15,017 nucleotides of DNA, taken from positions 1 through 15,017 of the forward strand of contig DIZT01000188.1 in assembly GCA_002427975.1 (NCBI GenBank). Direction: 5' to 3'. Both the position numbers and the translations under genes were made by a program. The notes under the pieces are model-generated. The model made no database searches. It worked only from the letters and a program-made list of their open reading frames with translations, and was not told where the DNA came from. Shown piece by piece: positions 2,794 through 14,775 of this stretch. Every line of letters begins with the position of its first letter. Within the stretch, counting starts at the first letter, position 1. Origin of the DNA: Micrococcaceae bacterium UBA6021. Lineage in GTDB: Bacteria > Actinomycetota > Actinomycetes > Actinomycetales > Micrococcaceae.

Positions 2794-3996
2794 TCAGGCC
2801 GCGGCGTCGTCCTGCTGAAGTTCCGGGGCTGCCAGCGAACGCGGCGTGACGTCAAGGGCCGGCGGGGTGAGCAGCCCGGATTCGTCCATGGCATTGAGCT
2901 TCCTGGCCGTGGGCAGGATCCGCGCTTCCAGGGTGCCGATCAGGGAGTTGTACCGGTCCACTGAAGACTTCAGGGACGAACCGAGCTTGCCCACGTTGTC
3001 CCCGAGAGTTCCCATGCGCTCGTACAGCTGGCGTGCGAGGTCGAACAGTTCGCGGGCACTGTCCGTCAGCACATCCTGGCGCCACGTGAAGGCCACCGAT
3101 TTGAGCACTGCGAGCAGGGTGCTTGGGGAGGCGAGGACGACATTCCTGGACAGCGCATGGTCCAACAGTGTCGCATCGGCCGTCAAGGCTGCCGCGAGGA
3201 TGGATTCGGCCGGCAGGAAGCAGATGACCAGCTCGGGGGAGTTCCCGGGGATATCCCAATACTTCTTGTTGCTGAGCGCGTCCACGTGGGCCCGCAGCGC
3301 CTTGGCGTGGGCGGCCAACAGGGATTGCTGGTTGCCGGGGTTCCCCGCGGACTCCTGCCGCGCACCCAGCTCCTGGGCCTCCAGGTAAGAGGACAACGGC
3401 ACCTTGGCGTCCACCACCAGCTGCTTCTGGCCCGGCAGCTGGACGACGAGGTCGGGACGGACCGCCGAATCGGATCCGGCGCTGTGGACCTGCTCAAGGA
3501 AATCCACATGCTTGAGCATCCCCGATGCTTCAACCACACGGCGCAGCTGCACCTCACCCCATTGTCCACGGGCGCTGTTGGAGCGGAGCGCAGACTCAAG
3601 GGCGTGGGTGGAGCGGATGAGCTGGGCATCGGACAGCCTGGCCTCCTGCAGTTGCTGCGCCAGCTGGCCGTACTGTTCCAGGCGGTCGCGTTCCAATAGG
3701 GCCACCTGCTGCTGCACTGCGGTCAGCTTTTCCGCCACCGGCGCCAGGGCGCGGAGCACGCTCCCGTCCTGGTTGCGGGCCTCACCGAGCTCCCGGTTCT
3801 GCAGGGAAAGGAGGCGGCGCTCCGCGTCCGCGGCCGCGAACTGGGCGCTGACCTCGGAAAGGCGCGACGAAACGGCGTCGAAGTCTTCCTCCAGGGCGCG
3901 ACTGCGCCGGCGCAGTGGAAAGTAGGCGGCGGTGGCGCCGGCAACGGCACCGACCAGCAGCATCAACAAGGCAAGAATCACGGCTAAAGCATCCAT
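2794..3996 (-). CDS. rmuC: DNA recombination protein RmuC homologue
   Basis: RmuC-family proteins are membrane-anchored coiled-coil proteins with a nuclease-like fold. In E. coli, loss of RmuC raises inversion at short inverted repeats; the biochemical role is uncertain. The 400-residue product starts with one TM helix (ALAVILALLMLLVGAVAGATAAYF) and basic residues (PLRRRSRALEED). A long coiled coil rich in Leu, Glu, Gln and Arg follows (to about residue 130). Then comes the RmuC domain, with family blocks RGQWGEVQLRRVVE, RPDLVVQLPGQKQLVVDAKV and ELVICFLPAESILAAAL. The ATG at 3996 was chosen because it starts directly before the TM helix and has GAGG upstream; an upstream extension to 4041 (MSLPQIV) would put non-hydrophobic residues ahead of the anchor. 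Confidence 0.93.
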   Translation of the reverse strand: MDALAVILALLMLLVGAVAGATAAYFPLRRRSRALEEDFDAVSSRLSEVSAQFAAADAERRLLSLQNRELGEARNQDGSVLRALAPVAEKLTAVQQQVALLERDRLEQYGQLAQQLQEARLSDAQLIRSTHALESALRSNSARGQWGEVQLRRVVEASGMLKHVDFLEQVHSAGSDSAVRPDLVVQLPGQKQLVVDAKVPLSSYLEAQELGARQESAGNPGNQQSLLAAHAKALRAHVDALSNKKYWDIPGNSPELVICFLPAESILAAALTADATLLDHALSRNVVLASPSTLLAVLKSVAFTWRQDVLTDSARELFDLARQLYERMGTLGDNVGKLGSSLKSSVDRYNSLIGTLEARILPTARKLNAMDESGLLTPPALDVTPRSLAAPELQQDDAAA

Positions 3997-4126: not shown

Positions 4127-5212
4127 GTGGCTCTTACTATTGGCATCGTCGGACTGCCCAACGTCGGCAAATCAACTCTCTTCAACGCACTGACCCGCAA
4201 CCAGGTGCTCGCGGCGAACTATCCGTTCGCTACGATCGAACCCAATGTCGGCGTCGTGAACCTCCCGGATCCGCGGCTGAAGCAGCTCGCCGAGATTTTC
4301 GGCTCGCAGCGCCTCCTCCCCGCTCCGGTGTCCTTCGTAGACATCGCCGGGATCGTCAAGGGCGCGTCGGAGGGCGAGGGCCTGGGTAACAAATTCCTCG
4401 CCAACATCCGCGAGGCCGAGGCCATCGTCCAGGTGGTGCGCGTGTTCGATGACCCCGATGTCATCCACGTTGACGGCAAGGTGGATCCCCGCTCGGATAT
4501 GGAGACCATCAACACCGAGCTGATCCTGGCTGACCTCCAGACGATCGAAAAGGCCATCCCCCGGATCGAAAAAGAAGTCAAGATCAAGAAGCGGGAAGCC
4601 GCCGAACTGGCTGCCATCCACGCTGCCCAGACGGTCCTGGAACGCGGCGACACCATCTTCGCCTCGATCACCAGCGACAAGCTGGAGATGGAGCACCTCA
4701 AGGAGCTCAGCCTCCTGACTGCCAAGCCGTTCATCTACGTCTTCAACGCGGACGAAGGCATCCTGGGCAGCCCGGAAAAGCAGGAAGAGCTGCGGGCCAT
4801 GGTGGCCCCCGCGGACGCCATCTTCCTCGATGCGAAGCTCGAATCCGACCTCGTGGAACTGGACGAGGAAGAAGCCCGGGAAATGCTGGAAATGAACGGC
4901 CAGGACGAGTCCGGCCTCGATCAGCTTGCGCGCGTCGGCTTCCACACCCTGGGACTGCAGACCTACCTCACGGCCGGGCCCAAGGAAACACGTGCCTGGA
5001 CCATCCACCAGGGCGACACCGCGCCGCAGGCAGCGGGGGTCATCCACAGCGATTTCCAGCGCGGCTTCATCAAGGCCGAAGTGGTTTCCTTCCACGACCT
5101 CATTGAGGCAGGGTCCATGGCTGAAGCCAAGTCCCGCGGCAAGGTCCGGATTGAAGGCAAAGAATACGTGATGGTCGACGGCGACGTGGTGGAGTTCCGC
5201 TTCAACGTGTGA
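4127..5212 (+). CDS. ychF: Redox-regulated ATPase / Obg-like GTPase-fold protein YchF
   Basis: YchF is a conserved cytoplasmic P-loop ATPase (Obg-like, OLA1 family) that associates with ribosomes and is linked to stress responses. The 361-residue length matches the family. Visible features are the P-loop GLPNVGKS (about residues 8-15), the G3 block VDIAG, the NxxE-type G4 block (FNADE) typical of the ATP-preferring YchF branch, and the C-terminal TGS domain ending [19 protein letters not shown] at 4127 is preferred as a leaderless start (MALTIGIVG); an in-frame ATG at 4121 adds two residues. The last codons form the left copy of a 17-bp direct repeat whose partner is at 12968. The reading frame is complete, so the apparent integration left the protein intact with TGA as its stop. 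Confidence 0.95.
5194..5210 (+). repeat. attL-like 17-bp direct repeat at the 3' end of ychF
   Basis: The 17 bases GTTCCGCTTCAACGTGT lie inside the last codons of ychF and recur exactly at 12968-12984. The flanking bases differ on both sides. One copy restoring a gene's 3' end and a second at the far side of foreign-looking DNA is the expected product of tyrosine-recombinase integration. Calling it attL is inference. Confidence 0.75.
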
Positions 5213-5396
5213 CTCGGGGAGATCGAGGACTGGCTCACGTCCGATTTGGGCATCATCCCTATGCGAGAGAGGGGCTCATGGCACGACGGCACCGCCCTCG
5301 ACAGGTTCAGCGACGTGGACTACTTCATCGCGATGCCGGCGAGCCGTCCGGACGACTCCTCGATGACGTCTGCGACCGTGCCTCCATACTTGGATC
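5213..5396 (+). pseudogene. Remnant of a Pol-beta-type nucleotidyltransferase
   Basis: Read in the frame starting at 5213, the segment gives IEDWLTSDLGIIPMRERGSW followed by HDGTALDRFSDVDYFIAMP and ASRPDDSS. The pattern G-S-x(n)-G-T-A-x(4)-S-D-V-D is the nucleotide-binding and metal-binding signature of Pol-beta-superfamily nucleotidyltransferases (GS block, then DxD as D-V-D). Only about 60 residues remain. No start or N-terminus exists because the segment begins right after the ychF stop, and the frame runs into unrelated sequence over the AbiV gene. It is therefore truncated at both ends. It might derive from a CBASS-like or housekeeping-type transferase; too little is left to tell. Confidence 0.6.
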
Positions 5397-6104
5397 ATGG
5401 TGAAGAAGGACGAGAGCGAGCCGGAATATGTCACGGCAGAGTTCGCTCGACTGTGGTGGAAGTCGTTGATGGCAAACGTGGTCGCTCTCGTGGAAGACGC
5501 CGCGCTTCTTGCCTCTCACGAGAGCCCTGGTCGGGCTCAGTCGCTTATCGTGCTTGCCATGGAGGAGCTGGCAAAGGCGCGCTGGCTATACGAGGCTGCC
5601 GAATATGAGTGGTCAGCCCCATTGGGTCTGTACGGACTCGACCCGCGGCCCGGCGGCGACGTGACCTTACCGGAGGGTCTCTGCTCTACGCGTCGGCCTC
5701 ACGCCGAGAAGCTACAGGCGGCCGAACAGTTCGCATCGGGCCTCGCTGGGTTCTGGACTCTGGAACGGCGCATGGAGTACTACGAGCGGCCCGACTTGGA
5801 GACGTTCATTGCCACAGCGAAGCAGCGCAATCTCGACAAACAGGCAGGCTTCTATGTGGACCGGGTCGGAGACAGGATCTCCGTTCCGTTCGGGATCTCC
5901 GCTGAAGACGTCGCGAGTGCCATCAGGCACACCGCAAAGGTCGTCCAGATGCATCTGATTGAGGACCATACTCGCCAGCAAGATGCGCCCGTCGCCTCCC
6001 TGATCGATTCAGTGGAAGACCTCCACTGGGCTGTCATTCCATATTCCGACCCGGAGCTGTTTGCCGACTTCACCGACCGGATGTCAACTGGTGAGGACGG
6101 GTAG
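5397..6104 (+). CDS. abiV: AbiV-family abortive infection protein (HEPN-like)
   Basis: AbiV of Lactococcus blocks phage growth by shutting down translation after contact with a phage protein (SaV); the family is grouped with HEPN-fold helical proteins. The 235-residue product carries the family's helical core (WWKSLMANVVALVEDAALLA, then the block AMEELAKARWLYEAA near residues 54-68). It also has the later signature QRNLDKQAGFYVD (about 143-155) followed by a short beta turn and SVPFGIS. The length fits the family. ATG at 5397 has no clear ribosome binding site and lies directly after the nucleotidyltransferase remnant, so loss of upstream sequence may have removed the native promoter. No second AbiV-type gene adjoins it; the family often acts alone. 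The family call is confident; antiphage activity here is inference. Confidence 0.82.
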   Translation: MVKKDESEPEYVTAEFARLWWKSLMANVVALVEDAALLASHESPGRAQSLIVLAMEELAKARWLYEAAEYEWSAPLGLYGLDPRPGGDVTLPEGLCSTRRPHAEKLQAAEQFASGLAGFWTLERRMEYYERPDLETFIATAKQRNLDKQAGFYVDRVGDRISVPFGISAEDVASAIRHTAKVVQMHLIEDHTRQQDAPVASLIDSVEDLHWAVIPYSDPELFADFTDRMSTGEDG

Positions 6105-6347
6105 GGCTCCAAAATCCGCGTGGACGGGACGGTGCCTCGTGTCGTACGCCTACGAAGGGTTCGAACGGATAGTTCGGATGCCGAGACTATCTCGCCGGAC
6201 GTCGCATGGATTCATCCATGGGCTGCGGGAAGGAGTCAGCCTCTTCTCTAGATCCTCGCTGCCTACTCACCGCGCCCGGTAGCTCGGTCAACTGCGCATG
6301 AACGGCGGACCCACAGGCCGCGCACCACGGACTCTGCGAATGGCAGC
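6105..6347. other. Non-coding gap after abiV
   Basis: This stretch holds short open frames without recognisable protein character. No strong hairpin, repeat or RNA gene was seen. It may contain the promoter for the broken gene that follows. Confidence 0.3.
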
Positions 6348-6801
6348 ATGGCTGACCGCGCTGCATCTGACGAACGCTACGTGCTCGAGCTGTGCGACGA
6401 GATCCTTAGCGCGAGAGGCCGGAGCCAAGCGACGTTCGATTGGCTCCGGGGTGACCCGTCCTCTGCGCGTCCTCTTGGAACAAAGCTCCCCGTGGACGGC
6501 CACTGGCAGGCTCTCAAGCTCGTTGTAAAGTTCGGGGAAGAGCAGCATTCAAAGCCGTCGCCGTTCTTTGACGGACGCCAGACCGTATCCGGCCTGGGTC
6601 GCGGAGAGCAGCGTGGTCTCCTATGACGAGCGCAAGCCTCTGCTCATTGCGGAGCACGGACTGCGTCTGTTGGTGATCGAGAAGTCCGCGTTCGCCGTCA
6701 GGTCGAAGCGGATCGTACGCGACCGCGCCAGGGACACCACCGTCGTCCGCGACTGCCTCGGAGAGTGTGGCCGCGCTGGCCCTACACAAGCGTCATCGTG
6801 A
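6348..6801 (+). pseudogene. Frameshifted hypothetical protein, possibly endonuclease-like
   Basis: Two adjoining frames read as one protein once a single base is removed. The first frame (from 6348) gives YVLELCDEIL, FDWLRGDPSSARPLGTKLPV, the block LKLVVKFGEEQH and TVSGLGRGEQRGL, then meets TGA at 6624-6626. Dropping one C of the CC at 6620-6621 continues it as YDERKPLLIAEHGLRLLVIE and onwards to TGA at 6799-6801, about 150 residues in all. This layout is familiar from hypothetical actinobacterial proteins (LPVD-x-x-W, E-E-Q-H, GRGEQR, GL-L-I). The spacing of D, E and Q resembles a PD-(D/E)XK-type core, but that assignment is weak. The fault may be a true mutation or a sequencing error. Confidence 0.65.
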
Positions 6802-6895
6802 GACGGAACGCTGATCTCTCGAGGGTGAGCAATGCGAACGGCCACGCTGCTCGGCGGCTGTCCAGAAGGTCGACGTCCCGTTCGGAAAGCCTCGC

Positions 6896-7774
6896 TCAGG
6901 ACGACTGACTCCGGCCCTCCTCCCGCTGCGGCGGATCTCCGATCAAGTCAATATGCGTGAATGGCCCCAGGTAGTCGTCGTGGAAGGGCAGCTCCTCCCA
7001 GCTTGGCAGGCCGTCGGGCAACGGGAAGATCCGGGCGGTCCGGTCGGGAATCACGTCTGTTGGCAGTAGCGGCTCCGGGGCGTGGATGACGACCGCGACG
7101 AGATCCGCGATGCGGATGTGCGTCACCAAAGTGAGCTCCATGAGCCGTTGCATTCCATCGAGCTGGGCCTGCGGACAAGACGCCGCATCCGGCGACTTCT
7201 GAACCCAGTCGAAGACGCCGTTCTGCTTGCGGACGCGGAACAGGTCCACAGCGAATCGGTCCGGGATGCCGGTCGCCAGCGCATGCCGGGAAAGCCTGTC
7301 GACAAGGAGCCTGAAGGGCTGGGACACGTTCAGGTTGACTGCCGTCTTCGCGAACCACCGCGCAAGGGTCGTGGCTTCGTCGTCGGTGATGCACCCCTGG
7401 CGCGGGCTCTGAGTCAGGATCGGCATGGCGCTCACCTCCAGCGAAGACATCCAGCCGTTGTTGCACCGGGCGCAGACCTCGCCGTTGAAATGGGCGCGCA
7501 GCGGACGCTCTCCGCGCTCAGACGCGACGACGCCGCCCAGAGGCATGCTGATGCGGATGGGGTGGACTCGCTCATCCATGGCACCGTGGTGCTTGAGGAG
7601 CCACTGGGGGAAGATGTGCTCCTTCGACCGCGTCCCAGCGATGTTGTCGCAGAACCAGCAGAAGGGGACTGGCTCGACTACTCGGTGGGCGAGCCGGCGG
7701 CCCGTCTCGATCAGGTTCCGGTCGAACTTCCGCAGTCTGTCGGGATCTACAGGCTGCTCACTACCTGGCGGCAT
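6896..7774 (-). CDS. HNH-type zinc-binding nuclease-like protein
   Basis: This 292-residue product is the third gene of a minus-strand operon. It shows C39-x2-C42 (PFCWFCD), then SKEHIFPQWLL (about residues 50-60), and C101-x2-C104 in CARCNNGWM. Two CxxC pairs around an E-H-I-x-P motif form the zinc-bound beta-beta-alpha core seen in HNH endonucleases, with H53 as the likely general base. The rest is a helical C-terminal region with no motif I can name. The ATG at 7774 was chosen because it overlaps the upstream gene's TGA by one base (TGATG), a translational-coupling arrangement; the longer open frame would add 31 basic residues lying over the upstream gene. Nuclease activity is inferred from the motifs. 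Confidence 0.72.
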   Translation of the reverse strand: MPPGSEQPVDPDRLRKFDRNLIETGRRLAHRVVEPVPFCWFCDNIAGTRSKEHIFPQWLLKHHGAMDERVHPIRISMPLGGVVASERGERPLRAHFNGEVCARCNNGWMSSLEVSAMPILTQSPRQGCITDDEATTLARWFAKTAVNLNVSQPFRLLVDRLSRHALATGIPDRFAVDLFRVRKQNGVFDWVQKSPDAASCPQAQLDGMQRLMELTLVTHIRIADLVAVVIHAPEPLLPTDVIPDRTARIFPLPDGLPSWEELPFHDDYLGPFTHIDLIGDPPQREEGRSQSS

Positions 7775-8259
7775 CACTTCTCCTCTGCGACGTGGACGAA
7801 CGGTGGCCTGACGCGGGATACGGCGGCGAGCTTTTCGTTTAGCCTCGAGATCGCGGAGTTGAACCACTCATCGTCGATCCAGAAGCGCGTGCCGGTCGCT
7901 CGACTGTTCCGCGTCTCCGAGCGGTTGAGCCGCTGCCCCTGATCCGGGTGCGTGGCGGGCCGGGCGTGTAGCACGTCGCTCCTGATCTCTGCGGCGACGT
8001 AGAGCATCCTGTACACCTCGGTCAGGTAGTCCTTGATCGGCCCAACTTTGGCCGCCTTCGCGGCGTCCCTGACTCCGCCGGCGATCCCTGAGGTCATCAT
8101 GGGCTCCAGCCTGTCCAGCGCGAGGTCGTCCGGCAGCCGGTCCGTGAGGCGGTGCAGATCGCCGAGGATCGTCCACTCCATCGACGAGACCGTGTATGCC
8201 ACTTCGCCGATCCTCGCGAGGTACGTCTGTTCGGGGAGCGCGACGCTCGATCGTTCCAT
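7774..8259 (-). CDS. Small helical protein with HEPN-like RX4H motif
   Basis: The 161-residue product is predicted mainly helical. It carries RSDVLHARPAT at about residues 93-103, so R93-x4-H98 matches the R-X4-6-H catalytic signature of HEPN-superfamily ribonucleases. Further recognisable blocks are QTYLARIGEVAYTVSSMEW near the N-terminus and FWIDDEWF near residues 127-133. The start has GGAGG upstream (within the end of the preceding gene), and the start codon follows that gene's stop by 3 bp. Its own stop overlaps the HNH gene start. In known HEPN modules such proteins are RNA-cleaving toxins or defence effectors; whether this one cleaves RNA is inference. Confidence 0.62.
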   Translation of the reverse strand: MERSSVALPEQTYLARIGEVAYTVSSMEWTILGDLHRLTDRLPDDLALDRLEPMMTSGIAGGVRDAAKAAKVGPIKDYLTEVYRMLYVAAEIRSDVLHARPATHPDQGQRLNRSETRNSRATGTRFWIDDEWFNSAISRLNEKLAAVSRVRPPFVHVAEEK

Positions 8260-8262
8260 CGG

Positions 8263-9033
8263 TCAGTCCTCCGAGTTCCGGCGATTGGACGGGTGGATGC
8301 GGGCAGCTGCGATCCGCTCCAGCTCTTCCTGCGACAGGAGGTAGGCACGGCGGCCGTGGCCACGATCCCGGCTGTCCATGATGCGGCGGTACTCGGCCAG
8401 CATGCGGAGATACGTGTCGAGCATGCGTGAATGCGAGTTGCCGTTGTCGTTGCGCTCCAGCTGGGGCTTCAGCTCGGTCCACCGGTCATCCCGCATCAGG
8501 AAGTCGACGTAGCTCGCCATATGCCCCTCTAGCGCATCGTTGTGGTCGAAGCCGTGGAACTCAACTTCGTAGGCCAGTTCCTCGTCGACGGGCGACCCTT
8601 CCTTCGAGAGCTGGTCGATGCTATAGGTGGTGGTCCGGAACATCTGGAGGATATCGGATACGCGCCCGCAGTCCCGCTTTGACAGCTCGGTGTTGAAACC
8701 GGCCATCTCGTACCAGTACTCGCCGGTGAAGCCGGCTTCGAGGATGCCCGCCCGCATCAGTTGGTAGTCGAGATCGCCGTCGACGTCATTGCCGTCCTTA
8801 GGCAGCACCCGCGCGTGGATCCGGTGCAGGAGGGAGAGTACCTGCCTGTCGACGATCCGCATGCTCTCCGGGGCGGGCTCATCGCCGTGCTTGATCTCCC
8901 GTTCGTAGATGGGCACGACCGCCTCCATGAGTAGGTCTCGGACAAACTCGCTGAGCGTCACGCCCTCGTTGTCCGCCATTTCCTTGAGCTGATCGCGGAC
9001 GTGATCGTCCACTCGGATATTCAGAACTGCCAT
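8263..9033 (-). CDS. Ribbon-helix-helix DNA-binding protein with YfbU-like domain
   Basis: The first gene of the operon encodes 256 residues. Residues 1 to about 40 form a ribbon-helix-helix DNA-binding domain (LNIRVDDHVRDQLKEMADNE, then GVTLSEFVRDLLMEAV). From about residue 58 to the end it resembles the YfbU family: DRQVLSLLHRIHARVL, the block GRVSDILQMFRTTTYSIDQL, FHGFDHNDALEGHMASYVDF and AYLLSQEELERIAAAR line up with the order of blocks in E. coli YfbU. YfbU has no settled biochemical role; in E. coli it has been listed among proteins contributing to MazF-linked cell death. The ATG has GGAGG upstream with good spacing. A perfect 9-bp inverted repeat 19 bp upstream makes autoregulation plausible. 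Confidence 0.78.
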   Translation of the reverse strand: MAVLNIRVDDHVRDQLKEMADNEGVTLSEFVRDLLMEAVVPIYEREIKHGDEPAPESMRIVDRQVLSLLHRIHARVLPKDGNDVDGDLDYQLMRAGILEAGFTGEYWYEMAGFNTELSKRDCGRVSDILQMFRTTTYSIDQLSKEGSPVDEELAYEVEFHGFDHNDALEGHMASYVDFLMRDDRWTELKPQLERNDNGNSHSRMLDTYLRMLAEYRRIMDSRDRGHGRRAYLLSQEELERIAAARIHPSNRRNSED

Positions 9034-9051
9034 TTTGTCCTCCAGTATGCG

Positions 9052-9082
9052 TGTATGACGCTTAGTGTCGCACCGTCATACA
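9052..9082 (-). promoter_or_regulatory. Palindromic operator-like site upstream of the RHH-YfbU operon
   Basis: TGTATGACG (9052-9060) and its exact reverse complement CGTCATACA (9074-9082) are separated by 13 bp, giving 22 bp centre to centre, about two helical turns. A related GTATG half-site sits at 9044-9048. The site lies 19 bp from the ATG at 9033, where the promoter should be. Ribbon-helix-helix proteins bind such spaced repeats as dimers of dimers, so the product of this operon is the obvious candidate ligand. Confidence 0.6.
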
Positions 9083-9469
9083 AAGTCGGTTATGTCGCGA
9101 TCTGCCGCTGTCGATGATCGTGCTCCAGCTGTCTGGTGAGCGACTCCGGATGGCGCCTTATCGCGTGACGCGTGTGTGGGGGGAGGCGCTTCGCGCTTCG
9201 AGCGGGCAGAGCCCGCCCGGGTGAGGGGTGGGAAGGGCTCGACGTCGAGGCGGGCCTCGGTGCGCCGGTTGCCGACGCTCTTCAGGCAGCGGCGGAACAG
9301 GCGCGGGTTGCGATTGAGAGCGAACATCTGCGCCCGGTGCTCGGGCAGTTAGAGATGGAGTCCAGGCCACCAGGAGGGAGCTCGCCCTTGCTGCCAAGTA
9401 GCCACCGGGTTATCCACATACCCGAATGTGGCGGTTACGTGCAGCCCGCAGTCCGGCGATGCTTGGCGA
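9083..9469. other. Gene-free GC-rich gap with short hairpins
   Basis: No convincing gene is present. A perfect GCGGGC/GCCCGC hairpin with a 3-nt loop lies at 9202-9216 and a CCACAT/ATGTGG inverted repeat at 9414-9431, close to the next gene. The stretch 9170-9400 is open in several frames on both strands but encodes proline- and arginine-rich or low-complexity sequence with no family I recognise. It may be decayed coding DNA. The promoter of the DUF1877-like gene should lie near its right end. Confidence 0.35.
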
Positions 9470-9988
9470 ATGGGAATCAGATACTACGCGTACGCATTCG
9501 ACGGCAACTTGACAGATCAAGCGCTTGTCGATCCGCTCAGCTTTCTCTCCGATGATCCGCTCGCCGATGCATGGGGATTCGAACACTGTGCCACGATCAG
9601 CACCCCGACGTTTGAGCAAGCGGTGCCTAATCGGGACATGCTGTACCTCGACAAAGCATGGCGGCATTTGCAGTGCCTCACCGCACCAGCGGAACCAGAC
9701 CTGATGGCCCGTCGTGCCTATCGGATGTTCGAGGGCGCAGTGGTCATGAACGACATGGGTTGGAAGCCTTGGGTGCGGACATTGACCCCACCGGAGGTGT
9801 TGGCTGTCGCAAGGGACCTGGAAGAGGTCTCCGACGAGGACGTGGAGTTACGGCTGCGGGAATCGCATTGCTTCAGTCCGGACGTTGATGGTGAGGTCGA
9901 CTATGTCGTGAGCTACCTTCGGCAAGCGCGGACCTTTACGGCGAACCTCGCTGCTGAGGGACGCGGCATGGTCTACATGATCGGATGA
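9470..9988 (+). CDS. DUF1877-like (YfbM-like) hypothetical protein
   Basis: The 172-residue product starts MGIRYYAYAF and contains LYLDKAWRHLQCL (about residues 61-73). That block resembles the DLDKSW-x-x-L-H-x-L block of DUF1877/YfbM proteins, and the segment RTLTPPEVLAVARDLEEVSD matches the following TPEEV-type helix. There are no TM segments or signal peptide, so it is likely cytoplasmic. The ATG at 9470 was chosen over upstream GTG codons because the conserved MGxRYY opening starts there. The family has no known function; members are scattered in accessory regions. It converges on the oxidoreductase gene, with a long hairpin between. Confidence 0.6.
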   Translation: MGIRYYAYAFDGNLTDQALVDPLSFLSDDPLADAWGFEHCATISTPTFEQAVPNRDMLYLDKAWRHLQCLTAPAEPDLMARRAYRMFEGAVVMNDMGWKPWVRTLTPPEVLAVARDLEEVSDEDVELRLRESHCFSPDVDGEVDYVVSYLRQARTFTANLAAEGRGMVYMIG

Positions 9989-10008
9989 TGTCAGTACCGC
10001 GTGATTCC

Positions 10009-10054
10009 AAAGAACCCCACCGGGGACCAGTGCAGGTCCACGGTGGGCTTCTTT
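10009..10054. terminator. Strong hairpin between convergent genes, likely bidirectional terminator
   Basis: AAAGAACCCCACCG (10009-10022) pairs with CGGTGGGCTTCTTT (10041-10054) with one mismatch. Inside it, GGACC (10024-10028) pairs with GGTCC (10035-10039) around a 6-nt loop. The A-rich left arm and T-rich right arm suit termination in both directions, as expected between the converging DUF1877-like and oxidoreductase genes. Confidence 0.75.
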
Positions 10055-10107
10055 GTCTCTGCATGCGTTCCAATGGCTTGCAGCGGCCGCCGGCAGGCCG
10101 GCAACCC

Positions 10108-11148
10108 CTAACTTGCCCGGGTCCAGCCCAGGGCGGGACCCAATTTCGTGGCGATGTCGGTGAGGATTTGGACGTAGTCCTCATGGTGGAAGCTGAACGG
10201 CAGCGCGAACGCCACTTCGTCGACCTCCTGGAACCCCGCGTGTGCGTACAGCTGTTCGGCGATCTGATCGCTGGTGCCGATGAGATCCGGGGCGAACAGC
10301 ATCCTTTTTGGCCCCTGCGGCGCCCGGGTGCGGGGACTGCGTTCATCGACGTACCGCTGGTACTTTTCCCGCTGCTGAGCTGAAGCCGAATCGGTAGGGA
10401 TCACCACCAGGCCTTGCGAGACCCTGGCTGGTCCATGCGGTTGGGCTGATGTCGCGGCGGCTTCACGATAGGCGCGGATCTGCGATTGCTGGATTTGGGC
10501 AAACGCGGGTTCCTGATTCGTTTCGGGGAAGATCACACTGCTGGAGAGCAGATTGAATCCGTTTGACCCGGCCCAGACAGCCGATTTCCTGCTGGCCGCC
10601 CCATACCAAAGTCGATCGCGGAGCCCGGAAGAGTACGGCTCGACGCGGTTGGAGAATTCCTCGACGACACCCTGCTTGCCGGAAAATTCCCGGACCGGTT
10701 CCCCTGCAATCAAACGGGCAAGCCGTTCCACGCGTGCGTAGCTGAAGTCCTCCAGCTCGGCGGAATCCGGGTAGAGCTCGTGCTTCACCGTGCCGTAGTT
10801 CATTGGTTCACCGACGCTCAGGCCCGGATTGAGTCGCCCGCCCGCGAGCAGATCCACTGTGGCCAGATCCTCAGCCAGGCGCAATGGATTTTCCCAGCCC
10901 ATGGGGGTGACAGCGGTTCCAAGCTCGATCCGGGAGGTGCGTTGGCTGGCCGCGGCCATGATCGCAATGGGGGAGGAGATTCCGAACTGCAGATGGCGGT
11001 GGCGCAGCCAGGCGCTGTCGAATCCGAGCCGTTCGCCCAGTTCGATGACCTGCAACGTCGATTCGTGCCCCGCGGCTGGATCCGCTGGATCGAACAGACC
11101 AATCGTCAGAAATCCAAGCTTGCGTAACGGTTGTGAAGAATGGGGCAT
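10108..11148 (-). CDS. LLM-class (luciferase-like) flavin-dependent oxidoreductase
   Basis: Members of this family are TIM-barrel enzymes using FMN or F420 to oxidise or reduce small molecules; the substrate here is unknown. The 346-residue product shows the family order: LGFLTIGLFDP at the first strand, LGERLGFDSAWLRHRH, a stretch SPIAIMAAASQRTSRIELGT with AVTPMGWENPLRLAEDLATV, and DLLAGGRLNPGLSVGEP. The C-terminal block LIGTSDQIAEQLYAHAGFQE is the usual end-of-barrel motif (G-x-P/S-x-x-V/I-A-x-x-L). ATG at 11148 follows GAAGGAAG and begins just before the first strand; the open frame continues upstream for 100 codons of arginine-rich, implausible sequence. It is divergent from mazE and is the one cargo gene without an obvious defence role. 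Confidence 0.85.
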   Translation of the reverse strand: MPHSSQPLRKLGFLTIGLFDPADPAAGHESTLQVIELGERLGFDSAWLRHRHLQFGISSPIAIMAAASQRTSRIELGTAVTPMGWENPLRLAEDLATVDLLAGGRLNPGLSVGEPMNYGTVKHELYPDSAELEDFSYARVERLARLIAGEPVREFSGKQGVVEEFSNRVEPYSSGLRDRLWYGAASRKSAVWAGSNGFNLLSSSVIFPETNQEPAFAQIQQSQIRAYREAAATSAQPHGPARVSQGLVVIPTDSASAQQREKYQRYVDERSPRTRAPQGPKRMLFAPDLIGTSDQIAEQLYAHAGFQEVDEVAFALPFSFHHEDYVQILTDIATKLGPALGWTRAS

Positions 11149-11293
11149 GGGCTTCCTTCGAAGGGTTCGTCGACGGCTGGTCCCCATGATATCCGGGGGG
11201 ACCAAGCGCGTAGGCACAGCGCAACCAGTCAGGAGACTCCGGGATCGACAGATCTTTCGGATACAAGTAGTTGAGGCGCGTAGTCCGTTAGGA

Positions 11294-11310
11294 ATACCGA
11301 TTGGTATACT
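11294..11310 (+). promoter_or_regulatory. Promoter and operator-like palindrome of the mazE/mazF pair
   Basis: ATACC (11294-11298) and GGTAT (11303-11307) form an inverted repeat around GATT. The right arm overlaps TATACT (11305-11310), a good -10 box 6 nt before the ATG at 11317. The mRNA would be leaderless, and a protein on the palindrome would cover the promoter, the usual logic of antitoxin autoregulation. Confidence 0.55.
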
Positions 11311-11316
11311 GGGTTG

Positions 11317-11544
11317 ATGGCAACGACAATCAAGGTGTCGGTCGAGCTTCGCGACCGAATCAACCGTGACGCTCAGGAGCGGGGAGTGACGGCGGCCGGT
11401 CTTATCGAGGGGCTGCTCGACGGGTACGAACGGCGTAGGCGCATGCAATTATTCGGGCATGCGTTTCGTGGTGCAGACCAAGAGTACTGGGATGAGTTCC
11501 GGGAATGGGACGTTGCGCTGAGTGACGGACGCGATGGTAGGTGA
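11317..11544 (+). CDS. MazE-like ribbon-helix-helix antitoxin
   Basis: The 75-residue product begins TIKVSVELRDRINRDAQERG and continues VTAAGLIEGLLDGYERRRR, a ribbon-helix-helix DNA-binding domain. A C-terminal tail follows (DQEYWDEFREWD), of the kind that wraps and blocks MazF. The ATG at 11317 directly follows an apparent -10 box and has no Shine-Dalgarno sequence, consistent with a leaderless start; an in-frame TTG at 11314 is less likely. Its 3' end overlaps the downstream toxin gene, the standard toxin-antitoxin order. Role and partner are inferred from domain type and position. Confidence 0.8.
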   Translation: MATTIKVSVELRDRINRDAQERGVTAAGLIEGLLDGYERRRRMQLFGHAFRGADQEYWDEFREWDVALSDGRDGR

Positions 11545-11881
11545 TCTCCAACGGGGGATGGTTGTATGGGCCGAACTTGATCCAGTCCGCGGGCGTGAAC
11601 AGGCAGGGCGTCGTCCTGCACTTGTGATCGCAAGTGATCTTTACCTCGAGCAGGCCGACACGCTGGCGATCATCGTCCCTGCGACGACGACTGATCGCGG
11701 ATGGCCCAACCACGTGCCGTTGACAGGCTCGAATCTCATGCTCACCCAGCTGACGTACGCGATGACCGAACAGCCTCGGGTGGTCACGCGTGAGCGACTC
11801 TTTGATGTGGCGGGAATTGTCGACGCGGCGACCATGCATGAAGTCGACGGCTGGCTTCGTGATTTCCTCGCCTTGCCGTGA
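11534..11881 (+). CDS. mazF: MazF/PemK-family endoribonuclease toxin
   Basis: MazF toxins cleave mRNA (and in some cases tRNA or rRNA) at short sequence motifs, arresting growth when the antitoxin decays. The 115-residue product has RGMVVWAELDPVRGREQAGR followed by RPALVIAS, containing the conserved basic residue before the RP (R27). It also has PATTTDRGW (about residues 49-56), carrying the catalytic-site threonine region, and the later QLTYAMTEQPRVV strand with an L-x-x-V-x-G-x-V/I-like helix entry. It overlaps the antitoxin gene by 11 bp. An in-frame GTG at 11522 would add four residues and is equally possible. Cleavage specificity cannot be read from sequence. Confidence 0.88.
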   Translation: MVGDLQRGMVVWAELDPVRGREQAGRRPALVIASDLYLEQADTLAIIVPATTTDRGWPNHVPLTGSNLMLTQLTYAMTEQPRVVTRERLFDVAGIVDAATMHEVDGWLRDFLALP

Positions 11882-11949
11882 TTGGCGCTTGGTGGCCTTT
11901 GCATGACCGAGGGCGCGCGGGACGGTTACGACGTCGCAACCGGCCAAAA

Positions 11950-11976
11950 TTGCTGGCTTCCCCGGTGCTTTACGAT
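11950..11976 (+). promoter_or_regulatory. Possible promoter of the potassium channel gene
   Basis: TTGCTG (11950-11955) and TACGAT (11971-11976) are spaced by 15 bp. The ATG at 11984 follows the -10-like box by 7 nt, so a leaderless start is possible. The spacing is short of the usual 17 bp, so this is tentative. Confidence 0.3.
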
Positions 11977-11983
11977 GCAACCT

Positions 11984-12748
11984 ATGACCCAACACCTCTG
12001 GCGCCGCTATTCGGAGTGGCCGCTCGTCATCGCGGCCCTTCTATTCGTCGTTGCCTACTCCGTCCAAGTCATCGGCAACATTTCCGAGCGTGACGCAGGG
12101 GTAATCGAGACCATTGTGTGGATAACGTGGGCGTTGTTCGCTGTGGACTATCTTGCCAACCTCATACTCGCCCCACGGAGGGGCAGATGGTTCATCCGAA
12201 ATCTCCACGAGCTCGTAATCCTGGCCTTGCCCGTTCTGCGTCCCTTACGCCTGCTTCGGCTAGTAACGCTCCTTCGGGTCCTGCACGGCGCCGCTGGCAA
12301 CGCCTTGCGTGGGCGCATTGTGACCTACGTTCTCGGCTCCGCCGTACTTCTAACGTATGCGGGTGCGCTCGCCGTCCTTGACGCGGAAGAGAACGCCAGT
12401 GGCTCCAACATCACAAACCTTGGGGACGCCATCTGGTGGGCGTTGACGACTATAACAACCGTTGGATACGGCGACCATTACCCGGTCACGGTGGTGGGGC
12501 GCGTCGTCGCAGCAGGTCTAATGATCGGTGGCATTGCTGTTTTGGGCGTGGTCACGGCGTCTGTTGCATCGTGGCTGGTTGAGCAGGTGAGCGCCGAGAC
12601 TGCGGCCGAGGTGGAAGCCGCGGACGCGCCGCTGCGAGCTGAGTTGGCGAGACTATCGGCGCAGGTTGAGCGCCTGACGTCCCTTCTGGATTCCCGCCCG
12701 ATGGATGACACGGGAACGGCACTGAAGAAGCCGCCACGGATCTTCTAG
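11984..12748 (+). CDS. Voltage-gated-type potassium channel
   Basis: The 254-residue membrane protein has S1 (WPLVIAALLFVVAYSVQVIG) and S2 (ETIVWITWALFAVDYLANLI). An S3/S4-like segment follows in which arginines recur at about residues 86, 89, 92 and 98 (RPLRLLRLVTLLRVL), like a voltage-sensor helix. Then come S5 (IVTYVLGSAVLLTYAGALAVL), the pore with selectivity filter TTVGYGD (158-164), and S6 (VVAAGLMIGGIAVLGVVTAS). The C-terminus is a short coiled coil (about residues 206-236) that may set the tetramer. The ATG at 11984 is chosen as possibly leaderless; ATG at 11975 is an alternative, and a longer TTG-started frame from 11882 lacks support. It lies about 100 bp after mazF on the same strand. 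Ion selectivity is clear from the filter; the physiological role is not. Confidence 0.85.
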   Translation: MTQHLWRRYSEWPLVIAALLFVVAYSVQVIGNISERDAGVIETIVWITWALFAVDYLANLILAPRRGRWFIRNLHELVILALPVLRPLRLLRLVTLLRVLHGAAGNALRGRIVTYVLGSAVLLTYAGALAVLDAEENASGSNITNLGDAIWWALTTITTVGYGDHYPVTVVGRVVAAGLMIGGIAVLGVVTASVASWLVEQVSAETAAEVEAADAPLRAELARLSAQVERLTSLLDSRPMDDTGTALKKPPRIF

Positions 12749-12967
12749 GGCCACTCAACCAGCCGGGAAGGAACGAGGACTCGGAACACCCGGTTCTGCC
12801 GTGGCCGGTAGACTATTGGGCGAACGACTTCCGTGGCCTATCGGTCCGTACGTAGTCCGCAAAACGTCCACATCAGGACCGTAACGGACCACCACAGACC
12901 ACCATGGAACCCCCGGAATCTAGCGGCTTCTGGGACCAGACAACCACGGACGAAAACCCGGGCACAG
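12749..12967. other. Right end of the island: gene-free, repeat-rich
   Basis: No gene is supported here. The stretch next to the right repeat carries GGTCCGT (12843-12849) and its reverse complement ACGGACC (12884-12890). It also has two GGACC copies within 12876-12890 and a 10-bp imperfect tandem (GGACCACCAC, then AGACCACCAT) ending at 12905. Such clusters beside an attachment site can be arm-type binding sites for a tyrosine recombinase and its accessory factors, but this is inference. Confidence 0.35.
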
Positions 12968-12984
12968 GTTCCGCTTCAACGTGT
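12968..12984 (+). repeat. attR-like 17-bp direct repeat with duplicate ychF end
   Basis: This is the exact partner of 5194-5210. Read in the ychF frame it gives FRFNV followed by TAA at 12984-12986, so it is the apparent original 3' end of ychF left behind at the right junction. Confidence 0.75.
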
Positions 12985-13011
12985 AATTTCCGGACGGACA
13001 AAGGAGACGGC

Positions 13012-14775
13012 ATGCCGCTGAGGCGTCTGATTCAGGTCATCACCGGGGCCGTAGCCGCGGTTCTGGTCATCTCAGGGTGTTCCGGTTCGGGGGGAGCACC
13101 TCCGGTGGTGGTGGGCGCGACGAAGCAGGGCGGAAGCGTCACGGTGGCGGAGGTGAATGCCTTCACGTCGTTCAACCCATTCAGCGCCGCCGGAAACACG
13201 GACATCAACACCAAGATCGGCAATATCACCCATTCCGGGTTCTACTATGTGGATGACACCGAAAAAGTGGTCCGGAACGAGAAATTCGGACACTTTGAAA
13301 AAGTCTCCGACAATCCCCTGAAGGTGAAGTACACCGTCAATGCCGGGGTGAAGTGGTCCGACGGCGCAGCCATCGATGCCGGCGATCTCCTCCTGTCCTG
13401 GGCCGCCGGTTCTGGCTACTTCGACGACGCTGACGCCCAGTCCCGGACAGGCACCACCTATTTTTCTGCCGCTGCGGACAAGAGCGGCCTGGCGGCCACC
13501 GCCCTCCCGGAGATCGGCAGTGATGGCCGTTCCATCACTCTGGAATACGCGTCACCATACGCGGACTGGGAAGTAGCGTTCGACGTCGGGCTGCCGGCCC
13601 ATGTTGTAGCCGCCAAGAGCGGCCTGAACGACGAAGCCGCCCTCATTGACCTCATCAAAAACTCGCCGCGGGGTGACACCAGGAAACCTGCGAGTAACGT
13701 CCCGCTGAAACGGGTCAGCGATTTCTGGAATTCAGGGTTTGACACCAAGAGCCTGCCCGAAGACCCAGCCATGTACCTTTCCAGCGGGCCATACATCGTC
13801 CGCGACATCGTTCCGGGCGCCTCGATACGACTGGTGCGGAACAAGGACTATGTGTGGGGTGCCGAGCCCTCCCTGGATGACATCACCGTCACGTTCACGG
13901 GCGCTGCCGCCGCTGCCATCGCCGCGCTCAGCAACGGACAGGCTGACATCATCGCCCCGCAACCCTCAGCCGGCACCGAAAGCCTCTTCGACGGCTTGGC
14001 TGCCCAGGGCAACACTGTCCAGCGGTACAGCCAGTCCGCTTACGACCACCTCGATCTGAATTTTACGGGCTCCTTTGCCGACAAGAATGTCAGGGAGGCG
14101 TTTCTCAAAACAGTTCCCCGGCAGCAGATCGTGGACGATGTGGTGGGCGGGTTCGTGCCCGGTGCGAAGCCCCTGGATTCGCAGGTCTTCCTGCCCTCCC
14201 AACCCAAATACCAGGATTCTGTCAAGAACAACGGTTCTTCCGAATATTCGGCTGTGGATATCCAAGGGGCAAAGTCGCAATTGCAGGGAGCTGCACCGAC
14301 AGTCCGGATCCTGTACAACAAGGACAACCCCAATAGGGTGCGAGCCTTTTCGCTGATCCGGGACTCGGCCCGTCTCGCCGGTTTCACCGTTGAAGATGCG
14401 GGTCTCGGCAACTCGGATTGGGTAAAGGCGCTCGGAGGCGGAAGCTACGACGCTGCCATCCTCGGCTGGATCGGTCCCGGAGTCGGCGTCAGCCGCGTCC
14501 CGCAGATCTTCAAGACAGGCGGCGCCAGCAACTTCAACCGGTTCTCCGACGGCGACGCGGACAAAGCGATGGAACAACTGGCAACCACCACGGACCTGGC
14601 AAAGCAGGACGAACTGATGGCCGCCGTCGACAAACGGGTGTGGAACAGCGCCTATGGATTGCCCCTCTACCAGACCACGGGAACGGTCGCCTTCAGCAGC
14701 CGTGTGACGGGAATCAAGCCCAGCTCCGGCCCTTTGGGCGTCTGGTGGAATGTGTGGGAGTGGCGCCTCAAATAG
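13012..14775 (+). CDS. ABC transporter substrate-binding lipoprotein, family 5 (peptide/nickel type)
   Basis: Family 5 binding proteins capture oligopeptides, dipeptides or nickel outside the cell and hand them to an ABC permease. The 587-residue product begins with basic residues, a hydrophobic signal and the lipobox VISGC with C23 as the lipidation site. Characteristic blocks follow: VKYTVNAGVKWSDGAAIDAG with DLLLSW, SGPYIVRDIVPGASIRLVRN with KDYVWG, ISALSNGQADI-like AAIAALSNGQADIIAP, and DHLDLNFTGSFADKNVREAF. ATG at 13012 was chosen because AAGGAG (13001-13006) precedes it and the signal peptide starts there; the open frame extends to 12904 across the attR-like repeat and is an artefact. 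No permease genes are in the window, and the ligand is unknown. Confidence 0.9.
   Translation: MPLRRLIQVITGAVAAVLVISGCSGSGGAPPVVVGATKQGGSVTVAEVNAFTSFNPFSAAGNTDINTKIGNITHSGFYYVDDTEKVVRNEKFGHFEKVSDNPLKVKYTVNAGVKWSDGAAIDAGDLLLSWAAGSGYFDDADAQSRTGTTYFSAAADKSGLAATALPEIGSDGRSITLEYASPYADWEVAFDVGLPAHVVAAKSGLNDEAALIDLIKNSPRGDTRKPASNVPLKRVSDFWNSGFDTKSLPEDPAMYLSSGPYIVRDIVPGASIRLVRNKDYVWGAEPSLDDITVTFTGAAAAAIAALSNGQADIIAPQPSAGTESLFDGLAAQGNTVQRYSQSAYDHLDLNFTGSFADKNVREAFLKTVPRQQIVDDVVGGFVPGAKPLDSQVFLPSQPKYQDSVKNNGSSEYSAVDIQGAKSQLQGAAPTVRILYNKDNPNRVRAFSLIRDSARLAGFTVEDAGLGNSDWVKALGGGSYDAAILGWIGPGVGVSRVPQIFKTGGASNFNRFSDGDADKAMEQLATTTDLAKQDELMAAVDKRVWNSAYGLPLYQTTGTVAFSSRVTGIKPSSGPLGVWWNVWEWRLK

Follow-up and report, generated by a model that had tools for sequence, protein, structure and literature searches.

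A candidate toxin-antitoxin-like defence operon headed by an RHH-YfbU regulator in a Micrococcaceae genome

The DNA analysed here (the window), 15,017 nucleotides from Micrococcaceae bacterium UBA6021, is contig 292 in a genome assembly that is 83% complete (3.79 Mb in 346 contigs), and the subject of this report is a three-gene operon on its minus strand. The first gene, g1 (8263..9033), encodes an RHH-YfbU protein of 256 amino acids predicted to act as an autorepressor or antitoxin-like regulator, the second, g2 (7774..8259), a helical protein of 161 amino acids that is a candidate HEPN-type RNase, and the third, g3 (6896..7774), an HNH-like protein of 292 amino acids that is a candidate DNase. 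A gap of 3 bp separates the end of g1 at 8263 from the start of g2 at 8259, and the stop codon of g2 has one base in common with the ATG of g3 (TGATG, 7772-7776). All three starts have a ribosome-binding site ahead of them on the minus strand, GGAGG for g1 (9039..9043), GGAGG inside the end of g1 for g2 (8268..8272) and GAGGAG inside the end of g2 for g3 (7780..7785), in keeping with the translational coupling that an earlier sequence-only reading of this DNA had described. The inverted repeat GTATGAC-N15-GTCATAC (9053..9081, given without strand), which starts 48 bases before the g1 start, is the predicted g1 operator. The layout is that of a type II toxin-antitoxin system, with an antitoxin-type DNA-binding gene first, a coupled gene next and an operator-like repeat that would serve as the operator. 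Searches with PADLOC 2.0.0 returned no family for g1, g2 or g3 at E-values of up to 1.

The g1 protein matched the Pfam family YfbU (PF03887) with an E-value of 4.3e-42 and 144.4 bits against a cut-off of 25, and RHH_1 over residues 4-39 with 23.8 bits against a cut-off of 20.5, which bears out its earlier description as a DNA-binding regulator fused to a YfbU-like domain. Against solved structures the g1 profile matched E. coli YfbU (1wpb, E 9.9e-12) and its N-terminus the antitoxin MazE7 (6a6x, E 0.0055). The ten Pfam matches of g1 at E-values of up to 1 were to YfbU and to RHH-type or antitoxin DNA-binding models, with none to the Panacea domain, which we take to correspond to a DUF entry in Pfam. 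RHH is a DNA-binding domain used by numerous antitoxins (PMC10440598). In one study of E. coli, death following DNA damage required yfbU, and YfbU was termed a protein of unknown function there (PMC2646832). A longer form of g1 of 335-351 amino acids, which has at its C-terminus a conserved extension of roughly 80 residues, was seen in P0196, P0226, P0239, P0243, P0245, P0290 and P0300, and in P0239 and P0245 the length of the longest contig was equal to that of a g2 homologue. YfbU proteins that have no RHH domain were also seen on two viral contigs (L110, 2721-3212; L111, 3998-4525), near genes that were judged by eye to resemble those for terminase subunits.

The predicted operator was compared across 37 RHH-YfbU loci, counted without copies of the same place and without L077, L087 and L091, in which the N-terminus of g1 was unaligned. 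Twelve of these loci have the pattern GTRTGAC-N14/15-GTCAYAC, starting 48-54 bases before the g1 start (mean in single-base shuffles 0.0005); one arm alone was found in 21 (0.49 in shuffles). The 12 operator loci lie on different plasmids, on chromosomes and on one viral contig, and the repeat stands before lone g1 genes (L027, L028, L030) as well as before g1 with varied partners; they are not 12 independent events, since they have ancestry in common. Throughout the DNA examined such pairs of arms occurred only before g1, the exception being a pair with 10-base spacing in a Sinomonas stretch (L003, of which L042 is a copy). Other repeats seem to accompany the more distant RHH-YfbU relatives. 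The placing of this operator-like repeat points to autorepression of g1.

The g2 protein of the window had no match in Pfam, NCBIfam, PADLOC or PHROG, and sequence searches of solved structures with single sequences and profiles of g2 and g3 gave nothing useful. An alignment of 66 homologues, picked from 120 listed of the 133 found, showed R93, H98, E28, W29, D34 and E52 to be unchanged in every member, so that the R-x4-H motif noticed earlier turned out to be invariant. The presence of some Rx4-6H string means little in itself, because one is present in 74% of g2 shuffles, while its invariance does count. Position 94, directly after the arginine, is N in 43, S in 21, G in one and D in one of the 66, and S in the window protein. 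In HEPN proteins the residue that follows the R of Rx4-6H is polar, most usually N, D or H (PMC3710099), and a conserved Rx4-6H with a polar residue after R, by which the superfamily is recognised, is what g2 has, R93 and H98 being present in 66/66. A second conserved acidic residue, typically in the form Ex3[KR], is found in many HEPN families, not all (PMC3710099); in g2, E28 and D34 are invariant but residue 32 is L and there is no Ex3[KR] at E28.

The AlphaFold2 model of g2 (pLDDT 93.0, pTM 0.86) has a long helix at 11-37, shorter helices, a helix at 74-97, strands at 100-128 and a helix at 130-150, with R93 within helix 74-97 and H98 just behind it, and on this model helix 74-97 would, by our own assignment, be HEPN helix-3. 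When the 66 members were compared with Pfam at E-values of up to 10, no HEPN family was among the 25 shown of the 35 matched, and PF18736, which had no match anywhere, was useless as a comparison family. A comparison with five RiboL-PSP HEPN proteins by hhalign gave a probability of 2.9%, with IRSDVLHAR of g2 aligned to RRNEIAHGR. Fusions to HTH_3 were seen in 11 of the 120 listed g2 homologues (e.g., P0061, P0062 and P0073), suggesting that g2 is put to use with a DNA-binding partner elsewhere as well, and g2 also adjoins AbiH (L002) or an AAA_13 protein (L009). Taken together, we consider that g2 is probably of HEPN type.

The g3 protein has a conserved C-terminal half and carries the motif CxxC...EH...CxxCNNGWM, with C40-x2-C43, E53-H54 and C102-x2-C105-N106 in the numbering of the 293-residue translation from a GTG start, in which the histidine numbered H53 from the ATG becomes H54. 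In an alignment of 48 homologues C102, C105 and N106 were present in all 48, and E53 and H54 in all 46 that have the region, so that g3 shows the cysteine pairs around E/D-H and N residues that characterise HNH proteins. We take these conserved positions to be the HNH signature positions. The matches to Pfam HNH_5 remained below the cut-off throughout, at E 0.18 for the window protein and at up to 1 in 25 of the 48 homologues (best 0.0017), so that of the HNH-type nuclease proposed by the earlier reading the conserved residues stand and the family match stays sub-threshold. NCBIfam gave no match for g3, and the PHROG family phrog_38451, which has no assigned function, matched at E 4.9e-8; the AlphaFold2 model had a pLDDT of 92.4. 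On an Arthrobacter plasmid, a g3 homologue (L034, 2961-4858) comes after an HTH gene and one for an ImmA-type (M78) peptidase. The ImmA protease domain is the antitoxin in RosmerTA systems (PMC10440598), and because such a gene precedes this homologue g3 is perhaps also an effector that is swapped between partners.

Neighbourhoods were read in 13 g2 loci with their flanks (the window, L002-L011, L025 and L044), the other strong loci being copies and the weak loci L016 and L035 being left out. Two of the 13 have both g1 and a full g3 next to g2, namely the window and the locus of Pseudarthrobacter enclensis (L005), in which g2 is frameshifted, while in Sinomonas gamaensis (L003) g2 is followed by merely the first 25 residues of g3. 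The conserved co-occurrence of all three genes that the sequence-only reading expected was thus not borne out by the comparison, and the trio was rejected as a conserved three-gene system. Pairwise linkage was assessed from homologues having an equal length of longest contig, using the best 120 of 619 for g1, 120 of 133 for g2 and 65 of 65 for g3 with lengths of at least 1,400, adjacency itself being seen just in the loci read. Equal lengths joined g1 and g2 homologues in eight pairs, the window and P. enclensis included (offset-control mean 0.52, maximum 3), and g2 and g3 homologues in seven (mean 0.39, maximum 3), with a single equal length joining g1 and g3 directly, the one with all three genes, which is at the level of its control (mean 0.45, maximum 3). 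As judged from these sequence comparisons, the association of g2 with g1 and of g2 with g3 is recurrent, not obligatory. The distribution of g2 is sporadic, with homologues in 5/295 genomes from the same family (in one of them interrupted by stops, at E 8.7e-4) and 2/366 from the phylum (one weak). The plasmid collection held g2 in one record and g3 in two, and the phage collection gave no match for any of the three genes. Among viral contigs there were no g2 relatives, 22 contigs with distant g3 relatives, one close g1 relative (L068, the same as L108) and three distant YfbU loci (L109-L111).

Relatives of g1 are far more widely placed, with some relative in 186 records of the plasmid collection. 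Of the 40 plasmid entries listed among these, the neighbourhoods of 22 were read, their gene tables being incomplete; those left out (H9, H15-H22, H29, H31, H32, H34, H37 and H40-H43) are mostly apparent near-duplicates. The next co-directional gene overlaps RHH-YfbU or lies within 7 bp of it in 7/22 (L029, L031, L092, L094, L095, L098 and L101), where L098 is counted with a chosen start at 3240, the record annotating 3372, and in 4/22 (L026, L096, L099 and L100) an effector-like gene lies 32-220 bp downstream. No annotated co-directional gene was found within 20 bp upstream of RHH-YfbU in any of the 22, for which reason g1 looks like a first gene. Genome loci were read for partners in 11 cases (L036-L041, L045 and L074-L077), leaving out L083 and L085-L087, which have short flanks, and the G168 and G292 genomes; the partners in L041, L076 and L077 have their starts some 100-140 bp past the point where g1 ceases to align or to be open. 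In eight of the 22 plasmid loci (L028, L088, L089, L091, L094, L095, L097 and L100) RHH-YfbU has a 'recombinase family protein' gene beside it or in its vicinity.

The partners are of several kinds. In L095 the second gene overlaps RHH-YfbU by 1 bp and matches PDC-S54 (E 1.4e-107), its product being a putative PD-(D/E)XK nuclease as read from the motif only, and in L101 a DUF4062/PDC-S60 gene (E 2.7e-27) follows after a 3-bp gap. The partner in L092, on a stretch that also has DISARM drmA, overlaps by 4 bp and is HNH-like, matching the g3 profile at E 2.6e-5, and that in L098, 1 bp away on the chosen start, has a CxxC..H..CxxCN pattern and is HNH-like by motif, with no match in Pfam. DUF3800-like partners were found in L031 (4-bp overlap), L094 (7-bp gap), L096 and L099 (both among the loci at 32-220 bp) and the genome locus L076; the five were joined by BLAST, with L094 the weakest, and the Pfam E-values are weak, at 0.014 for L031 and 0.052 for L099. 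Abi_2/PD-T4-5 partners lie 220 bp (L026) and 147 bp (L100) behind RHH-YfbU, with a truncated Abi_2-like partner in L041, and the Abi2/AbiF/AbiD group is counted as HEPN (PMC3710099). The genome locus L077 has a TIR_2 partner (E 9.6e-12), and the partner in L029 had no match over the cut-off. On the evidence of these gene arrangements, RHH-YfbU is found to stand first in operons or pairs of genes in which the second gene varies. This is a more general feature than the trio of the window and suggests a control unit in bacterial immunity that can be reused.

The operon lies in a stretch of accessory DNA. Upstream of this stretch are housekeeping-like genes presumed, from their translations alone, to be lytB, rmuC and ychF. 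In three genomes of the same genus (L105, L106 and L107), DNA similarity to the window spans rmuC and ychF and ends at 5210-5215 in all three. It returns in L105 at 13123, in a gene read as encoding a solute-binding protein, which in that genome is placed some 0.4 kb after ychF; L106 has a homologue of the DUF1877 gene of the window about 90 bp behind ychF, and in L107 the other window genes tested were not found within a stretch of 18.5 kb. Because the similarity stops and resumes in this manner, the approximately 7.9 kb at 5216-13122 are read as accessory, and this place behind ychF as a variable site. In addition to the operon and the DUF1877 gene it holds, on the plus strand, a gene for an AbiV-family protein (5397-6104) 0.8 kb from the trio, which matches PF18728 at E 5.7e-27 and TIGR04498 over its cut-off and for which PADLOC gave no match, and an RHH gene overlapping a PemK/MazF toxin gene (11314-11881), which by its Pfam matches resembles a usual toxin-antitoxin pair of type II. 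A gene for an ion-channel protein, also recognised by Pfam, directly follows this pair, and a further open reading frame occupies 10108-11448. No tRNA genes were found in the window.

The reading that we favour, with about even confidence, is that the locus is a defence operon of toxin-antitoxin-like type, which represses itself and has two nuclease-like effectors, and whose g1 belongs to a partner-swapping family of regulators. In such an operon g1 would use its RHH domain to bind the GTATGAC-N15-GTCATAC operator in front of it and keep expression low, with the YfbU domain either sensing a trigger or restraining g2 and/or g3. The effectors would be g2, as a probable HEPN-type RNase, and g3, as a probable HNH DNase. 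Loss or release of g1, for example during phage infection, would then lead to derepression and free the nucleases, such that the cell is stopped or the invader degraded. The coupling of the genes, the operator-like repeat, the invariance of the putative active-site residues and the exchange of partners are the parts of this scheme that can be seen directly in the sequences. Of the candidate immune operon put forward by the sequence-only reading there accordingly remain a regulator and two nuclease-like genes in a defence-rich accessory stretch, linkage of g1 with g2 and of g2 with g3 above chance, and g1 before defence-type genes elsewhere, while the trio as a conserved unit does not.

Several findings weigh against the favoured reading. 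All 12 operator loci belong to the 17 with a g1 that is 62% or more identical to the g1 of the window, and the operator was absent from the 20 loci with a more distant g1. In 11 of the 13 g2 loci there was neither g1 nor a full g3 in the flanks read, a result that is weak for L004 and L010, which are short or end near g2. The g2 gene is itself damaged in some places, being frameshifted in P. enclensis (8001-8475), where g1 and g3 are still open, and in Catellatospora vulcania (L008, 8001-8461) and lacking its N-terminal part in Actinomyces oris (L011). Neither nuclease-like protein had a significant match of fold, the g2 model having none in Foldseek and only generic helix bundles in VIA-align. 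An effector-like partner was present in just 3/11 genome loci (L041, L076 and L077), and in two of the 22 plasmid loci (L032 and L093) the next gene is not effector-like. PADLOC matched four of 10 partner proteins but also two of 10 non-partner hypothetical proteins of the same loci, namely L029 5148-6071, which matches methyltransferase models too, and L092 1513-2391, just upstream of RHH-YfbU. The idea that PADLOC matches prove the partners to be defence genes was rejected on this account; the surroundings themselves are defence-rich, and since this control leaves the enrichment of defence genes among the partners unproven, the argument is based on coupling and on how diverse the partners are. 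Finally, no coupled partner, either none at all or one far away, was found in 9/22 plasmid loci (L027, L028, L030, L033, L088, L089, L090, L091 and L097), and this, together with the same operator standing before lone g1 genes and the occurrence of g1, g2 and g3 each apart from the others, favours the main rival, that g1 is a mere transcriptional repressor of a cargo operon in which g2 and g3 are independently captured defence or nuclease genes, with no neutralisation between proteins. Set against it are the seven plasmid loci with a partner overlapping or within 7 bp, as opposed to none with a co-directional gene close upstream, from which tight co-expression seems to matter, and we consider repression alone to be a rather unlikely explanation.

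The abundance of RHH-YfbU on plasmids, its position near a recombinase gene in eight loci and the variable site behind ychF would also suit a CopG-like regulator that maintains plasmids or other mobile elements, with g2 and g3 as chance hitch-hikers at a site of gene acquisition. This is very unlikely given that the g1-g2 and g2-g3 linkages recur above chance and that the three genes are packed together with a 3-bp gap, a 1-bp overlap and ribosome-binding sites inside the preceding gene. An explanation that we regard as highly improbable concerns g2, which might be a non-nuclease, such as a small helical adaptor or an antitoxin, leaving g3 as the sole toxic gene. The missing fold match and the low hhalign probability are in line with this, though the motifs do align there, as is the recurrent pairing of g2 with g3; the invariance of R93, H98 and E28 argues for a nuclease instead, as does the way in which the motif closes a long helix and is followed by strands, as in HEPN/Csx1 proteins (PMC3710099), and g2 is common away from g3 and found in HTH_3 fusions. 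The favoured reading of the locus can be extended to a wider proposal, which is tentative and on balance doubtful, that RHH-YfbU is an undescribed partner-swapping antitoxin or repressor family of mobile elements that brings along a palindromic operator and controls no fewer than seven kinds of effector (HEPN-like g2, Abi_2, HNH-like, PDC-S54 nuclease-like, DUF3800-like, DUF4062 and TIR), of which the window would be a two-effector version with RNase and DNase under one antitoxin.

In the literature found under YfbU, YfbU with antitoxin, and UPF0304 (titles, opening abstracts and parts of PMC2646832 and PMC5049587, with few subscription journals), no paper was found that describes RHH-YfbU as the regulator of a defence operon. 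The E. coli YfbU protein (PDB 1wpb, 4lr3) has the YfbU domain in common with g1; the match fills nearly the entire 172-residue chain, leaving no room for an RHH domain, so that the DNA-binding half is extra in g1. If RHH-YfbU is a shared switch or antitoxin for many defence effectors, there would be a testable job for the YfbU domain, which has solved structures, and RHH-YfbU together with the GTATGAC palindrome would be a simple marker for new immune operons in Actinobacteria and plasmids. With the HEPN superfamily (PMC3710099) g2 shares an Rx4H motif with a polar residue, its place at the end of a long helix, an invariant acidic residue upstream and Csx1-like strands after the motif, and it differs in the lack of a profile or fold match, in having no Ex3[KR] spacing and, in the window protein, in the serine after the arginine. 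PD-T4-5/AbiF-AbiD is an Abi-type plasmid defence gene (PMC9519451) whose relatives lie behind RHH-YfbU in L026 and L100, whereas g2 has no Abi_2 or PD-T4-5 match and the window adds an HNH-like gene. The PADLOC candidates PDC-S54 and PDC-S60, named in no paper of the literature searched, match partners behind RHH-YfbU in L095 and L101, although these effectors differ from g2 and g3. The closest parallel in organisation is Panacea (PanA) in the NetFlax network (PMC10440598), a paper absent from the full-text matches for YfbU, in which likewise one antitoxin domain goes with many unrelated effectors. The RHH-YfbU arrangement differs in that an RHH-YfbU domain takes the place of Panacea, that two candidate effectors stand in tandem in the window and that neutralisation by g1 is putative; if true, it would be a further case, beside Panacea, of one inhibitor domain serving many toxins.

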